Below are positions 50,639 to 57,975 of a stretch of 64,000 bases of DNA, in pieces (within the stretch, counting starts at the first letter, position 1; each line of letters starts with the position of its first letter). Made by a program: the position numbers and the translations under genes. Origin of the DNA: Deltaproteobacteria bacterium (GTDB taxonomy: Bacteria; Desulfobacterota; Syntrophobacteria; Syntrophobacterales; Syntrophobacteraceae). The notes beneath the pieces were generated by a model that was not told the origin of the DNA, did not search any database, and worked only from the letters and a program-made list of their open reading frames with translations. Location: positions 1 through 64,000 of the forward strand of contig JAAYVE010000028.1 in assembly GCA_012517315.1 (NCBI GenBank), written 5' to 3'.

Positions 50639-53494
50639 TCAATCTGACGAACCGGGCTCTTTGAGAAATCGTTTCAGGTTCTCGAGAATCTCCGGAAAAT
50701 GGTCTCTGCTCAACCGGATCCCCACCGCTCCAATGACGGAATGGCGCCTGTAGGGATCGACCTCGAACTGCCAGGGACGTACAGGAATCTCCTGGCCTGA
50801 CCCCTTCAGGAACCCCTCGAATTGCTTTACCTGGGCACAGAGCCTCTCGTATTCCTCTTCGCCGTGCAGGACTCCTTCCAGTTCCCCGAAGGAGCATCTC
50901 CCGAAAATCAGCAGGCAATCACCCGTCGGTCGTTCACCCGAAACTTCCTCCTTGATCATGAAGTCGGGATACGGGGCGAAAAAGGGATCCACATGGTAGA
51001 GTTCAAGGAACTCCTCCCTGGGGATCATTTCCTGGAGATTCAGGGGACATCCGTGGCGGCACTGATCCAGAAAAGTTCGCAAGTATCGGCATATGATGTC
51101 GAAATCCACTTCGGAAATAGAGAGTCCGATGCTTACGATGCGGGCATGCCCCTGCCCCAGGGGGGGTTCCCCCTGGACCAGCCGGATTCGATCATGGAGT
51201 CCTGGGTTCACCTGGGCCAGATAGCTGAGGAATTGTCGTGCGAAAACCTCCTTTTCCGCATAGTTGAGAGTGCCGGGTCCGATCTGGAGCTTGTCCAGGT
51301 CCTCGCCATACTCGAAATTGCTGGCGAGAATGAGATGGTAGCGATCGGCGGCTTTCATCACGTGAAAGCCGTCCTGTTCGAAGCCGCGCACGAGGCTCAT
51401 GGTACGGTTCTTGATAAAAATGTCTCGGATAACGTCGTTTTCCGTCTCACCCCGCTGACGGGCCTGCAGGACCATGAGTTCATGCACCCAGTGGGTCCTC
51501 CAGGTGGTGCAGAGCATGAGTGTACGGATGATTTTCTGTATCTCTGACCCCAAGTCTTTACCAGTGTAGCGCAGGACGGGATCGAAGCGGAAGTCCTCAA
51601 GGTGCACATCCTTGAGTTGAAGGACGCGCAGGCGATCTTTTTCGGGAATGTAACCGAGATAATTTGCAAAAGCCTTCAGCATTTCGCTTTGAGTGGGAAG
51701 ATCCTGCCCCTCCCGGAGATTTTTCTCCATCTGCTGATAGCGTTCCAGTTCCAGTTCCCATTCGTAGTGGATGTCCACGAGAGTGGAATAGTCATACTTG
51801 TCGTAGCCCATGGAGTCGAACTGTTCCCTCAGAAACTCCCAGTCCACGTAAAGCTTTTTCTGGATCCTTCTGTCCACCAGAAAGTCCGCACGAGCAGTAC
51901 TTCCCAGGATTCCCCGCTCACCGTCGATGAAGACTCTTTTTCCAAGATATTCAAAGAGGCTGCTTTGAGGGTTGAGCACGATCTCGTTGCTCTTGTGAAA
52001 AACGAGGGGTTTACCGTCGGCGTCCACCGTATTGATGAGGTAAGGCTTGGAATATGCCACCGCTGAAACGGCTTCATGGCCCGTCGTGTTGCCGTCGTAA
52101 CGAACGATGCCCTTGATCTGGGGATGGTTGACGGCAACGGTGTTCTCGCCGTAAGGGCGCTTGCGGAGCAGGATGACCGATTCGCCTTTTCGAGCCAGTT
52201 CCAGGGCATCCTCCGTTCCGAAAACGAGAATGCCCGCTTCTGCGCTGTCGGTAATGGGGATGCCGCGCGCCAGCACCCGGTAGTCCCTGAAATCTTCGGC
52301 GAGGATTTTCTCCGGTTGCTCCAACGCCTTGTTGATCACCATGGATGCCTGCTGAATGCTGGTCTTCCCCTCGTCCACAAAATCCCACATGGCTCGCACG
52401 GTGCCATTGGAGGTCATCCGCAGGGGTCTTCTTTGGAGGAGGTAGAGTTTTCCGTTTTCCACGGTGAATTCCATGTCGAGAGGCCTTCTGGCCCGTGCTT
52501 CGAACTTTTCGCGCACCAGCATCAGCTGCTCGTAGATGGAAGGGAAGCGCTCCCTGAGGTCCATTGCCTGCATCAGGCGTTTGCGGAGCTTTCCTGAAAC
52601 GATCTTGTCGCACTGGACCTTGGGAGCCCACTCGATGATGGGGCAGTTGGCTCCAGTGCGCGGATCCCGGGTGAAGAACACCCCGCTGAGGCAGTTGGTT
52701 TCATTGAGATTCCCGAATACCATCTCCTGGATGACCACGGCGGTTCCCATCTCTTCGAGGGACTCTCCATGGTTCTTCTGCCGGCTGCGGCGGGCTTCCA
52801 CGGCGGGCGGGGCCGAATTGGACGCGAAAACCGCCTCAATTGCGTTCCGCAGTTGGTTTGTCAGGTCATATTCGAAGCCCGGTGGAAACCGGGGGTGAAG
52901 CGCCTCCGCCAGCACTTCTTTGAACGAACGGATGAGACCTCGAACCAGGGGGACGGAAAAGGTCCCTTCGTCGCCGGCTCCCTTGATAATGCGATAGAAA
53001 TGCTCGTAGGGGATATCCAGCACCACTTCACCGTACATGCGGATGGCCGTGAGATAGGTCGTGAGGATCACACTTGCATCGTCCCCCGCGTGGATGAGAG
53101 CTTCCACCACCTCATCGTTGAGTCCTACGTTGAGCACGGTCGCAATGGCCCCGGGAAGAGAGATGGGAGCTCCACCCCGCACGGCCACGATGAGAGGCCT
53201 GTTGCCGCTCAGGTCTCCAAACTTCCTCCGGCGTCTGGACTCCAGGGAGGCCAATTCTTTAAGGACCGACTGGAAAAGGTGGTCGGGCAGAGTGTCTCCG
53301 GCTTCCCTGTACAGCTTCCAACAGTCGGTCGAAAGGATGAAACCGTCGGGAACGGCTACTGCCTCCTCCATCCCTGGAAAGAACTCCCTTATGTGCTGGT
53401 AGTCCTCGACGAGCTTGGCCCCCTTGGCCCCAAGTCTTTCCACCTGCGTTGGATCCGCGTTTTCGAATGCGACAACAAGTGTGTCTCCCGCCAT
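50639..53494 (-). CDS. PPDK-like protein with ATP-grasp and phosphohistidine domains but no PEP/pyruvate barrel
   Basis: 951 aa. Residues 1-360 match the nucleotide-binding domain of pyruvate phosphate dikinase: VAVRGGAPISLPGAIATVLNVGLNDE with R106 in the RSG position, and ENGKLYLLQRRPL closing it. Residues 440-530 match the swivelling phosphohistidine domain, with DGNTTGHEAVSAVAYSKPYLI giving H473 where PPDK has its catalytic histidine, though the flanking residues differ from TSHAAVVAR. The remaining roughly 420 residues show no TIM barrel or its cysteine motif and no recognised fold. It could phosphorylate itself but lacks the usual acceptor site. ATG 53494 follows GGAGGGTGGC. Confidence 0.78.
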   Translation of the reverse strand: MAGDTLVVAFENADPTQVERLGAKGAKLVEDYQHIREFFPGMEEAVAVPDGFILSTDCWKLYREAGDTLPDHLFQSVLKELASLESRRRRKFGDLSGNRPLIVAVRGGAPISLPGAIATVLNVGLNDEVVEALIHAGDDASVILTTYLTAIRMYGEVVLDIPYEHFYRIIKGAGDEGTFSVPLVRGLIRSFKEVLAEALHPRFPPGFEYDLTNQLRNAIEAVFASNSAPPAVEARRSRQKNHGESLEEMGTAVVIQEMVFGNLNETNCLSGVFFTRDPRTGANCPIIEWAPKVQCDKIVSGKLRKRLMQAMDLRERFPSIYEQLMLVREKFEARARRPLDMEFTVENGKLYLLQRRPLRMTSNGTVRAMWDFVDEGKTSIQQASMVINKALEQPEKILAEDFRDYRVLARGIPITDSAEAGILVFGTEDALELARKGESVILLRKRPYGENTVAVNHPQIKGIVRYDGNTTGHEAVSAVAYSKPYLINTVDADGKPLVFHKSNEIVLNPQSSLFEYLGKRVFIDGERGILGSTARADFLVDRRIQKKLYVDWEFLREQFDSMGYDKYDYSTLVDIHYEWELELERYQQMEKNLREGQDLPTQSEMLKAFANYLGYIPEKDRLRVLQLKDVHLEDFRFDPVLRYTGKDLGSEIQKIIRTLMLCTTWRTHWVHELMVLQARQRGETENDVIRDIFIKNRTMSLVRGFEQDGFHVMKAADRYHLILASNFEYGEDLDKLQIGPGTLNYAEKEVFARQFLSYLAQVNPGLHDRIRLVQGEPPLGQGHARIVSIGLSISEVDFDIICRYLRTFLDQCRHGCPLNLQEMIPREEFLELYHVDPFFAPYPDFMIKEEVSGERPTGDCLLIFGRCSFGELEGVLHGEEEYERLCAQVKQFEGFLKGSGQEIPVRPWQFEVDPYRRHSVIGAVGIRLSRDHFPEILENLKRFLKEPGSSD

Positions 53495-54021
53495 GCCACC
53501 CTCCGTTCCATGAGCAGTGGGAACAAGAGTCCAGCCCCGAAGGATTCTTCCTGTCGTGTGCGTCTGCAATGCATGTAAAACCCATCTGATTATACACACG
53601 GATTCCTCCCCCAGGAAAACGAATATGCCCCTCATAGACGTGACCTGCCTTTTAGTGAGACGGAGACGGCAACATGTTGCTAAATAACGGCTTCCTATTT
53701 GCCGATATACCCCATTGAGAACAGACCGCAGGGCCATTGGCACACGTTGGGACAGGTGGCTCCCATGGCATTCCCCGGCTGGTTTTCCCATTCCGCTTCC
53801 AGTCCGGGTCTTCCCAAGGGAGAGGAGATGGGGATGCCGGAAAGCTGGTCAATAGCCGGAGGGTTTCAATGACCCGGGCTGCCGTCAGCAACCCCTCATC
53901 TCGATGCCTTGCGTCAGGTCGAATGGCCGAAAAACCGAGGGGTGAGAAGAACCAACGGTCCTGGAAAACCGGGGTCACATGGAGCCAAGAGATTTTTTGC
54001 GCGTGTCAGCAGGAGTCAAGC
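53495..54021. other. Divergent intergenic region before the HDOD gene
   Basis: 527 bp separate the PPDK-like gene and the HDOD gene. A plus-strand frame runs open through part of it into the HDOD gene but the family N-terminus starts at 54022. No other feature was recognised. Confidence 0.45.
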
Positions 54022-54909
54022 ATGATCAGGGAACTCAATGACCACGAGGTGAATGCTCTTCACTACGAACTGCTCTTGAAGGACATTGTCGCCACCGCTG
54101 AAAAGCTGCCACCGTTTCCGGACATCGTATGGAAGGTCATGCCCCTCATTCGCAACATGGCACCTATCGAAGAGATCGAAAAAGTGATCAGGTTCGACCA
54201 GGTCATCACGGCGAGGGTCCTTACGCTGAGCCAGTCAGCGTATTACGGCAGGAGGAGCAAGATCTCATCTCTTCAGGATGCGATACTCGTCTTGGGGGGG
54301 CAGAGACTCGTCCAGGTGATCATGATTGCCTGTGCGGCCAGATACTTCCAGGGGAGCGTTTCGGGATATAATCTCAACGAGAGGGAACTATGGGAGCATT
54401 CTGTAGCTACCGCTTTGGTCTCGGAGAAACTCGCCCGCAGGCTCAGACTGAAAAAGGCCTTGACCATTTACACTGCTTCTTTGCTGCATGACATCGGCAA
54501 GACTGTCCTGGACCTCTATGCAAAGATTTACCTTCATTCGTCCCTGAGCGAAATCACCAACGACGGGATTGATCTCATCGACATGGAGCGAAAGGCCCTG
54601 GGCATCGGCCACCAGGAACTGGGAGAACTCATTGCCCGCCGGTGGCAGTTTCCCCCTGAGGTGGTTCTCGCCATCGGCCACCATCACTCCCCCGACAAGT
54701 CCCCAAGCGACAAGGATATCGTGACGGCGGTCTACATCTCCAACGCGATCGTCAACGGGGCGAAACGGGATGAGAACGGACACGAATCTGTGCGTCTCGA
54801 CGAGGATCCCTACTTCATCCGCATGGGCGTTGACCGGGCCATGGTCGACAGATTCCATGGAGAACTGGAGAAAGACATGGAGGAGATCAGACTGTTCCTC
54901 CGGGGTTGA
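54022..54909 (+). CDS. HDOD-domain signalling protein
   Basis: 295 aa, essentially one HDOD domain: KLPPFPDIVWKVMPLIRN, IEKVIRFDQVITARVLTLSQSAYYGRRSKISSLQDAILVLGG, SVATALVSEKLARRL, and HD-type histidine pairs ASLLHDIGKTVLD and AIGHHHSP. It keeps the HD pair that many HDOD proteins lose, so it may retain some metal binding. Such proteins act as signalling or regulatory modules, often linked to c-di-GMP and motility. The ATG 54022 follows AGGAGTCAAG. The downstream gap leads to the radical SAM gene on the other strand. Confidence 0.9.
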   Translation: MIRELNDHEVNALHYELLLKDIVATAEKLPPFPDIVWKVMPLIRNMAPIEEIEKVIRFDQVITARVLTLSQSAYYGRRSKISSLQDAILVLGGQRLVQVIMIACAARYFQGSVSGYNLNERELWEHSVATALVSEKLARRLRLKKALTIYTASLLHDIGKTVLDLYAKIYLHSSLSEITNDGIDLIDMERKALGIGHQELGELIARRWQFPPEVVLAIGHHHSPDKSPSDKDIVTAVYISNAIVNGAKRDENGHESVRLDEDPYFIRMGVDRAMVDRFHGELEKDMEEIRLFLRG

Positions 54910-55047: not shown

Positions 55048-56580
55048 TCACGTTAATAAAGCATCCTGGCGACAAAAGAACGGGGCATGGCTTGAAGTGA
55101 AACAGATGGGGTCGTTTCGCAGGATTGGTGCGATAGCGGAGTGCCTCTTGAATTCTTTGTGGAGAAACCGCCGCACTTGGCTTCGTCCCCATCCGGAAGG
55201 GTGGATAAAGCGGGAATAGAGGGAAAGATCCTCCTCCCCGCTTTCGTCTCTCCGGTGTGTCGCTGCTTCAGGGGAATGTCTGGGAAGATTGAAAAGGGCG
55301 AGGTTCAGGAAATGGATGTGGCTGGAGTGAGCAACCGTGTAATCCAAAGTCTTTCGGGCCGCTTCCAGCGTCTCCGATGGTGTCCCGAAGAGGAGGTAGA
55401 TATATGTGCCGATTCCGCTCTCCGCGAGGTTTTTGATCGCCCTGGAAGCCGCTTCCAGGGCGATTCCCTTTTGTTCCAGATCCAGCACCCGTTGGTCCCC
55501 TGATTCAAGACCCAGTTGCAACATGACACATCCCGAGCGTCTGAGGGCAAAGCAGAATTCGCGATCTTCCAGCCATCGGGAAAAACGGGCAAACCCGTAC
55601 CAGGGAACCCCGGGGGGATGAGCTGTCATTTTTTCCATGAGGGCGGGGCTGATGGCGTTGTCCACCAGGTGGATCAATGCCGGTGAGTGTCTTCGCGCCA
55701 GTTCCTGCAAATCCGCCGTGACCCTTTCGGGGGGTATGGGCAGGTAGGGGGTCTGTTCCGCCCTTTCCGGGCAGAAGGAACAGCGGTTCCAGTAGCAACC
55801 TGAAGATGCGCTGTATGGAATGATTCGCCCTGGGGCCAAGTAGTCCTCCAATGGAAGGGAACGGTAGTCGACCCTCCAGTTCACCTGCTTCACGTCGGAT
55901 CCGACGGTGAGTGTGACGAGGGGCGTTTCCCCCGGGCCCGCTACCATGTGATGCACGAGCCCCTCGAATGGGTTTCTCCAGCTAGGCGCACTGATCCAGG
56001 AGGTGACCAGGCCACCTCCCAGCAGCAGGGGCAGAGAGGGTGCGAGCTTTCGCAGAACCCCCACCATGGCGAAAGTGGGCAATGCCTGGCTGAGATAATT
56101 GAGGGAAATCCCCACTAATGAGGGATTCTCTCGCTCCAGGAGTGGGGGCAGGGACCTCGCCAGGAAGGGGTAAAAGACGTTCCGTTGAGGCTCTTCCGCC
56201 ACCGCGATGAGATCCCGGCTTTTCACGGGCGAGAAGCTCGCATCTTCATAGTTGGTGAGCGATAGGTTGACTCCCCTTTTTAGGGCGTGTTGCTGCAACA
56301 GTCGGTTGAGGTCGGAAACGGCCCGCGTGTAGCGGCTCCTGTCCAAGGGAGAATGAACGCCCCTCACACAATCCAGATTGTATTGAACATGACGACCCGC
56401 CCTGGCCGTCCATCGGTCCCCGGACACTTCGGGCTGTTGAAGGAGGTTCAGGAGACCTTCCAGGTTTGCGTCCCAGACAGTGCAGCGAACCCCGTGGGAA
56501 TGGAGGGTGCCCTGCAGCCTCGCAATGCCCGGCGGAGGCTCAGAGGGTCTCACAACAGGAGGGTTGATCAACAAGACCAT
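55048..56580 (-). CDS. B12-type radical SAM protein with CX4CX2C motif
   Basis: 510 aa. The N-terminal 190 residues resemble a B12-binding domain in layout (LLINPPVVRP, NPSLVGISLNYL, LPLLLGGGLVTSW). The radical SAM domain starts at SASSGCYWNRCSFCPE: cysteines 262, 267 and 270 give CX4CX2C, not the usual CX3CX2C. Later LGLESGDQRVL and GIGTYIYLLFGTPSET are normal for the class. Substrate unknown. The start ATG directly follows the stop of acdA (0-bp gap), so the two are likely translationally coupled. The C-terminus has no extra known domain. Confidence 0.85.
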   Translation of the reverse strand: MVLLINPPVVRPSEPPPGIARLQGTLHSHGVRCTVWDANLEGLLNLLQQPEVSGDRWTARAGRHVQYNLDCVRGVHSPLDRSRYTRAVSDLNRLLQQHALKRGVNLSLTNYEDASFSPVKSRDLIAVAEEPQRNVFYPFLARSLPPLLERENPSLVGISLNYLSQALPTFAMVGVLRKLAPSLPLLLGGGLVTSWISAPSWRNPFEGLVHHMVAGPGETPLVTLTVGSDVKQVNWRVDYRSLPLEDYLAPGRIIPYSASSGCYWNRCSFCPERAEQTPYLPIPPERVTADLQELARRHSPALIHLVDNAISPALMEKMTAHPPGVPWYGFARFSRWLEDREFCFALRRSGCVMLQLGLESGDQRVLDLEQKGIALEAASRAIKNLAESGIGTYIYLLFGTPSETLEAARKTLDYTVAHSSHIHFLNLALFNLPRHSPEAATHRRDESGEEDLSLYSRFIHPSGWGRSQVRRFLHKEFKRHSAIAPILRNDPICFTSSHAPFFCRQDALLT

Positions 56581-57975
56581 TCAAATGGCCCTACTCATGA
56601 ATTGGCGGCACTTGGCAAGAATGGACAGTGCCTCGAACGGTTGCTCGATTTCAGGAAAAGTGGCAACGCCTCTTGGTTCCAGGTAGGCTTTGCATTCCTC
56701 GTTGTATCTGCGGTCTCCGCTGAAGGAGACAAGAACCGGTTTGCCCGGGTACCGGCGGGCTAGGTCAACAAGGAAATCGTAGGAAGGAATTCCCGTATCC
56801 TCGGTCAGCATGAGGATCGTGACCACGGCGTCCACATTAGGATCCCCGAGCACTGCCTCCATCCCTTCCCGGTAGCCGAATTCAACGCCTTTGACGGAGG
56901 CGGCGGCCCAAATGTCGACGGGGTTTCTCATGCGAATGAAAGGGGGGCTGATGTCCTGGAGCCTTCTCACTGTTTTGGGGTCGAGTTCCGGTATCTGCAA
57001 TCCCAAGCGCACGCAGTGGTCGGCCAGGGAGACCAGCATGGCCCCCGATGGAGCAAGAAAAGAGATGCGGCTGCCTTTGGGAATGGGCGCCATGGAAAGG
57101 GCCTTGCCTGCTGAAACGAGATGGGAGTATTCCCAGATGCGAACCACTCCGGCCTGGCGGAAAAGACCGTCCACCAGGCGGTCCTCTGCGGCCATTGCTG
57201 CCGTATGGGCGACGGCCGCGTGCTTTCCCGCTTCGGTGGAACCGCTTTTGAGAGCGATGACCGGCTTGGAACGGGTCACGTTCCTAGCGACCTTTAGAAA
57301 GGCTCGCGGCCTCTTGATGCTCTCCAGGTACATGATGATGCCGTGGGTTTCTGGGTCCTCGCCGAGGTATTGAAGGGCGTCTGTTTCATCGATATCGATT
57401 TTGTTGCCCAGACCAACGACGCGAGCGACACCGAAATGTTCCGCCGTGAGAATGTGTTTCATAGTGTGGGTGGCGAAGTTTCCTGTCTGAGCGATGTAGG
57501 AGACCTTGCCGCGCCGGATCTTTCCCAAAGGGAAAAAAGTGGAGGTGAAACGGTGCGGTGTGGAGGTGTGGCCGGATGTGTTGGGTCCCAGCACCCGCAT
57601 GCAGTATTTCGTGACGATTTTTTCAATCTCCTGCTGTACTCTCGCGCCGGCTTCATCGACTTCCGCAAAACCGCCGGCCGAGAGCACCGCATGCCGGATC
57701 CCCATTTTGCCACATTCTTCCAAAGCCTTGGGCGTATCCCCCGCAGGGAGGATGATGACGGCAAGATCGATGCCCGGGGGGAGTGAAGCGATGGAGGGCT
57801 GCACAGGAATTCCCAGGATTTCTCCCCCCTTGGGATTCACCAAGTACAGAGAGCCCTCATACCCATTAGCGACAATATTTCGGATCACCTCATGGCCGGG
57901 CTTTCCCGGGGTTGCCGAGGCTCCGACGACGGCGACTGCCGATGGTTCGAAAAAGGCTGCGAAATGTCCCTTCAT
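56581..57975 (-). CDS. acdA: Acyl-CoA synthetase (ADP-forming), alpha subunit
   Basis: 464 aa. CoA-binding domain first (PSAVAVVGASATPGKPGHEVIRN), then two succinyl-CoA-synthetase-like ligase domains. The phosphohistidine lies in KHAAVAHTAAMAAED at H257, matching the active-site position known for the Pyrococcus alpha subunit. It would make ATP and an organic acid from acyl-CoA with AcdB, a typical energy-yielding step in anaerobes. GGAGAAAGACC precedes the ATG. The ATP-grasp beta subunit lies 46 bp upstream and a radical SAM gene abuts the stop. Confidence 0.92.
   Translation of the reverse strand: MKGHFAAFFEPSAVAVVGASATPGKPGHEVIRNIVANGYEGSLYLVNPKGGEILGIPVQPSIASLPPGIDLAVIILPAGDTPKALEECGKMGIRHAVLSAGGFAEVDEAGARVQQEIEKIVTKYCMRVLGPNTSGHTSTPHRFTSTFFPLGKIRRGKVSYIAQTGNFATHTMKHILTAEHFGVARVVGLGNKIDIDETDALQYLGEDPETHGIIMYLESIKRPRAFLKVARNVTRSKPVIALKSGSTEAGKHAAVAHTAAMAAEDRLVDGLFRQAGVVRIWEYSHLVSAGKALSMAPIPKGSRISFLAPSGAMLVSLADHCVRLGLQIPELDPKTVRRLQDISPPFIRMRNPVDIWAAASVKGVEFGYREGMEAVLGDPNVDAVVTILMLTEDTGIPSYDFLVDLARRYPGKPVLVSFSGDRRYNEECKAYLEPRGVATFPEIEQPFEALSILAKCRQFMSRAI

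Follow-up and report, generated by a model that had tools for sequence, protein, structure and literature searches.

The PPDK/PEP synthase superfamily makes new kinases by swapping or dropping the acceptor domain, and its known targets so far are rifampin, phenols and regulatory partners. PPDK itself converts ATP, Pi and pyruvate into AMP, PPi and PEP and back. RPH, which binds rifampin, has the domain order ATP-grasp, RIF-binding and C-terminal swivel (PMC4844700), and HpeHI, which binds hydroxyphenylethanones, consists of two proteins (PMC12167813). In M. tuberculosis, VadK (Rv1127c) is a PPDK derivative that lacks the barrel and terminates at the end of its swivel domain; it autophosphorylates the histidine of that domain and has enzymes of the methylcitrate cycle among its interaction partners (PMC13400623).

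The window analysed here, the whole of a 64,000-nucleotide stretch of DNA from a deltaproteobacterium of the Syntrophobacteraceae, encodes a protein of this superfamily, hereafter the window protein. The gene and the features of its head half are as follows:

50639..53494, minus strand: the whole gene, 951 amino acids plus stop (reading frame, orthologues)
52385..53494, minus strand: PPDK-type ATP-grasp region, residues 1-370 (Pfam PPDK_N, TIGR01828, hhalign, PDB alignment, invariance)
51923..52297, minus strand: swivel (mobile phosphohistidine) region, residues ~400-524 (weak Pfam PEP-utilizers match, hhalign to PPDK)
52076..52078, minus strand: codon of H473, the predicted phospho-histidine, in the motif T-x-H-E-A-V-S-A-x-A-Y (orthologue invariance, PPDK alignment)

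The window protein shares with PPDK (TIGR01828, EC 2.7.9.1) the same ATP-grasp and swivel over residues 1-489, with the catalytic residues kept, but differs from it in lacking the PEP-utilizers_C barrel, in an unrelated tail of 427 residues and in an altered swivel motif. Like VadK, it is derived from PPDK, has no barrel and retains the swivel histidine, whereas it adds a conserved extra domain of 427 residues past the swivel. An ATP-grasp region combined with a phosphohistidine swivel is likewise common to RPH and to HpeHI / PpsAB / CreHI, in which the acceptor domain is a non-pyruvate one; in contrast to RPH and HpeHI, the swivel of the window protein lies mid-protein (~400-524) with the tail after it, all in one chain, and the RPH family model NF041857 gives a trivial 17.4 bits (cut-off 999). 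PEP synthase (PpsA; TIGR01418) has the ATP-grasp and swivel of the superfamily in common with the window protein, which again differs in having no barrel and scores 32.1 bits against a TIGR01418 cut-off of 739.75. On balance we favour, with modest confidence, an origin from PPDK in which the pyruvate/PEP barrel gave way to another acceptor domain, the result being an ATP-driven phosphohistidine dikinase.

The orthologues start at the same methionine as the 951-residue window protein or at a nearby one. Pfam recognizes PPDK_N in the window protein with an E-value of 3e-25 (89.5 bits against a cut-off of 27) and, below threshold, the mobile domain PEP-utilizers (19.3 bits, cut-off 23.1), and at an E-value of 10 it gave no domain beyond these two. 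The PPDK equivalog model TIGR01828 (NCBIfam) covers residues 6-487 only (E 5e-83), with a score of 279.5 bits that lies far below its cut-off of 843. When 21 orthologues were compared with 8 canonical PPDKs in hhalign, residues 1-489 aligned with 100% probability and the match ended there, and the solved PPDK chains among PDB sequences match residues 10-480. In these alignments, from which all PPDK residue numbers given here were counted, H473 pairs with the catalytic histidine of the solved PPDKs, residue 455 in 9pzl_A. The residues K24, R106, D340, E342, Q354, R356, T471 and H473 are all invariant in the orthologue alignment; we equate them with K22, R92, D321, E323, Q335, R337, T453 and H455 of clostridial PPDK, presumably with the roles generally ascribed to these in PPDK. 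Thus the sequence-only reading of this locus, which had proposed a complete PPDK-type ATP-grasp domain, is borne out at every ATP-site residue checked. The same reading had noted a retained histidine in an altered motif, TTGHEAVSAVA, and both observations hold: all 23 family members retain H473, its neighbours T471, E474, A475, V476, S477, A478 and A480 are invariant in the orthologue alignment, and the residue following H473 is Glu, where PPDK has Ala. Near the PPDK nucleotide site hhalign pairs the PPDK segment GEYLINAQGEDVVAG with IEWAPKVQCDKIVSG in the window protein; as residues near this site are altered, ATP use by the window protein is a prediction. Judged from these conserved positions, H473 is probably autophosphorylated.

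The head half is followed by a region in which we found no trace of the barrel:

50642..51922, minus strand: C-terminal domain of no known family, residues 525-951, replacing the PEP/pyruvate barrel (no Pfam, PDB or PPDK-barrel match; kept in 23 genomes)

PF02896, the PEP-utilizers_C barrel, had no match in the window protein even at an E-value of 10 in Pfam, and a profile comparison of the tail with the 8 canonical PPDKs gave a probability of 1.9%. The genome's own two PPDKs, used as a positive control, return PF02896 at E-values of 7e-84 and 4e-81, which shows that the barrel test works. We therefore rule out a barrel hidden by divergence on the strength of the Pfam search at E 10 and hhalign, with the PPDKs of the same genome as control, and at the level of sequence the barrel is absent, in agreement with the earlier reading, which had also estimated a C-terminal region of about 420 residues. 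The tails of the 23 family members yielded no Pfam family beyond single weak matches, and the tail profile had no match among PDB sequences. Three more swivel proteins of the genome lack the barrel (L001, L002 and L003), but the tail showed no similarity to them, and a tail shared with these was rejected.

The anatomy of the tail was approached through structure prediction, profile comparison and residue invariance, which define three parts:

51374..51877, minus strand: tail segment predicted to be helical, residues ~540-707 (AlphaFold2 tail model, pLDDT mostly 60-85 here)
51056..51367, minus strand: first predicted beta-alpha-beta-beta-alpha module, residues ~710-813, with R771/E776/H783/G790 (AlphaFold2, profile comparison, invariance)
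50657..50959, minus strand: second predicted beta-alpha-beta-beta-alpha module, residues ~846-946, with R906/E911/H918/G925 (AlphaFold2, profile comparison, invariance)

The AlphaFold2 model of the tail, built from an alignment of four rows (the window protein, L009, L010 and L011 only), is of moderate to low confidence, with a mean pLDDT of 65.8 and a pTM of 0.59; that of the full-length protein is poor (mean pLDDT 43.8). In this model the tail appears to comprise a helical region, in which W665, T667, H668, W669, H671, D687, D691 and N696 are invariant, and then two similar modules. The pattern R-x4-E-x6-H-x6-G is invariant in both modules, such that R771, E776, H783 and G790 of the first recur 135 residues on as R906, E911, H918 and G925 of the second. 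A profile comparison of the two modules gave a probability of 68% and a score of 30, against a baseline in which unrelated segment pairs reach 19 at most; the single pair that scored 22 reflects this very repeat. The matched spacing of invariant residues is attained by ~8% of letter shuffles, so that taken alone it is only suggestive of an internal repeat; the case for duplication is made mainly by the profile comparison and the matching predicted secondary structure, and we regard an origin of the modules by duplication as likely, not proven. Foldseek searches with the tail model against PDB and viral models returned nothing at an E-value of 0.001 or better. VIA-align gave only matches with Z < 7, which we distrust; most of them are ACT-like pairs or fragments of the small domain of PLP enzymes, and RPH does not figure in these rows. 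Among these matches, the paired modules weakly resemble the ACT-type regulatory domains that aspartokinases carry in tandem (Z ~4.5-5.9).

The family comprises 23 full-length members including the window protein, the others being 55-81% identical to it, and these fall in three bacterial families of one class of anaerobes. The tail profile matches 23 of the 56 genomes of this class, and among ~395 genomes sampled from the phylum none outside the class was matched; viral contigs and plasmids yielded no relative, and the named records among the close relatives belong to Syntrophobacteraceae and a deltaproteobacterial MAG. A tree built on residues 1-490 unites the family in a single clade (100/100) with a long stem, and the branches inside it broadly track the three bacterial families, as would be expected of mostly vertical descent accompanied by losses. 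Identity to the window protein is 49-78% in the tail as against 56-82% in the head, and ~101 of the 427 tail residues are invariant as against ~152 of the 524 in the head, those in the tail including 9 Arg, 6 His, 7 Glu and 6 Asp. Across seven pairs dN/dS was estimated at 0.05-0.13 in the head and 0.06-0.13 in the tail, values that are rough because several pairs are near saturation at synonymous sites. The whole protein is under strong purifying selection. A tail almost as well conserved as the ATP-grasp half and bearing so many invariant charged residues looks more like an active site. In one genome (G022) an orthologue survives only as a frameshifted stretch covering its first 107 residues (L106:917-1172, minus strand), immediately downstream of a POR-like gene that is itself intact. 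Fragments in another genome (G014) were rejected as family members, as they are a canonical PPDK broken over three frames (L107:1-1354, minus strand), either a pseudogene or the result of assembly errors.

The window genome encodes two complete PPDKs besides the window protein, which is thus not needed as a PPDK. The gene is solitary in the window, with a divergent HDOD gene upstream (53737-54909, plus strand) and a glutamine cyclotransferase gene downstream that faces it; elsewhere in the window (55048-57975, minus strand) a radical SAM gene adjoins a gene for an acyl-CoA-ligase-type alpha subunit. The family gene is solitary in most genomes too, and across the family we found neither a stable gene neighborhood nor a partner gene that is consistently adjacent. 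Five genomes of genus g7 have, immediately upstream and in the same orientation, a gene for a 1294-residue pyruvate:ferredoxin-oxidoreductase-like protein, and a different POR-domain gene precedes the family gene in genus g4 (G012). The 1294-residue protein (e.g. L072:5686-9567, minus strand; 345 bits against a PFOR cut-off of 911) is common to two lineages of the class and is also found in genomes without the family gene, and the window genome holds no full-length copy, only short weak matches. We rejected this neighbor as a functional partner, as the two genes are not co-distributed and it persists beside the broken family copy mentioned above. A NuoEFG-type cluster found upstream in several genomes was likewise set aside, its genes being divergent and sharing no operon with the family gene. 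In single genomes a complete PPDK lies two genes downstream of the family gene (G009), and a formate-tetrahydrofolate ligase gene lies close to it (G031). Together the neighbors hint vaguely at pyruvate and C1 metabolism and are mutually inconsistent.

Several barrel-less swivel kinases are present in the window genome. One of 1453 residues on contig C54 (L102:1772-6130, plus strand) carries PPDK_N and the swivel at its C-terminus, without the barrel, preceded by ~950 N-terminal residues that have no Pfam match, and matches to it recur in open frames of ~1400-1580 residues in most related genomes. Contig C14 carries a PPDK_N and swivel protein of 1259 residues fused to a DSP-type phosphatase domain (L104:5012-8788, plus strand) and, ~50 kb from this fusion, a barrel-less pair with PPDK_N and swivel of 883 and 892 residues (L103:2555-5203, minus strand, and L103:12670-15345, plus strand).

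By homology with PPDK and its relatives, the ATP-grasp half of the window protein would bind Mg-ATP and hand the beta-phosphate to H473. The phosphorylated swivel would then turn to the C-terminal domain for transfer of the phosphate; the acceptor would most likely be a small anionic metabolite, bound through the invariant Arg, His and Glu residues that the helical part and both modules provide. A small-molecule acceptor is favored by the position of the tail, which sits where PPDK has its acceptor domain, by its enzyme-like conservation and by the precedents of RPH and HpeHI. The window protein thus probably phosphorylates something other than pyruvate. A bolder and tentative proposal is that it represents a new dikinase family, in which an acceptor domain of unsolved fold, formed from a duplicated module with paired R-E-H sites, takes phosphate from the PPDK-type swivel to yield a phosphorylated metabolite that is not a known product of the superfamily.

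An unlikely but serious competitor is a regulatory phosphodonor in the manner of VadK, in which H473 would be autophosphorylated and act on partner proteins, the tail serving as a docking or sensing domain. The barrel-less architecture and protein partners of VadK provide the precedent, and a sensing tail would fit the weak likeness of the modules to tandem ACT-type domains; yet VadK stops after the swivel, whereas here a tail of 427 residues comes close to the catalytic head in conservation, the ACT-like Z-scores lie in a range reached by unrelated folds, and a consistently adjacent partner gene is missing. It is improbable that pyruvate or another 2-oxo acid is still the substrate, with the new tail serving instead of the barrel. 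The POR-like and POR-domain genes upstream in g7 and g4 and the full PPDK downstream in G009 might be taken to favor such a substrate, but the POR-like gene occurs without the family gene, survives next to its broken remnant and has no full-length copy in the window genome, which has two full PPDKs of its own, and the catalytic barrel is gone.

More improbable still is that the protein senses ATP or energy charge in a regulatory role, binding the nucleotide without net phosphate transfer, an option raised by the sequence-only reading. An ATP site that is kept while some surrounding residues are altered would suit it, but a pure sensor needs none of the acidic pair, lysine, arginines and histidine that are all invariant, and no consistent regulated partner is apparent; the idea gained no positive support, the conservation and invariant charged residues of the tail being more suggestive of an active site. 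Finally, the missing barrel and the broken copy in G022 could suggest a PPDK remnant, whether decaying or chimeric, or else an error of assembly, an explanation with hardly any probability left and excluded by the 23 open members in three bacterial families and their low dN/dS (0.05-0.13). The earlier argument that the retained H473 speaks against a dead remnant thus stands, and neither of the findings that could have overturned that reading, PF02896 in the tail or loss of H473 in homologues, was observed. The dikinase with an exchanged acceptor domain remains our preferred interpretation.

Dikinase chemistry of this kind is known, whereas neither the acceptor domain nor the domain arrangement is described in the literature searched, in which we found no account of a PPDK head joined to an orphan tail. 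Such genes should not be annotated as PPDK. The window protein would represent a further exchange of the acceptor domain, in which one class of anaerobes keeps an orphan domain of ~427 residues under strong selection. The identity of its acceptor would reveal a new phosphorylation step and test the limits to which the swivelling phosphohistidine can be reused.
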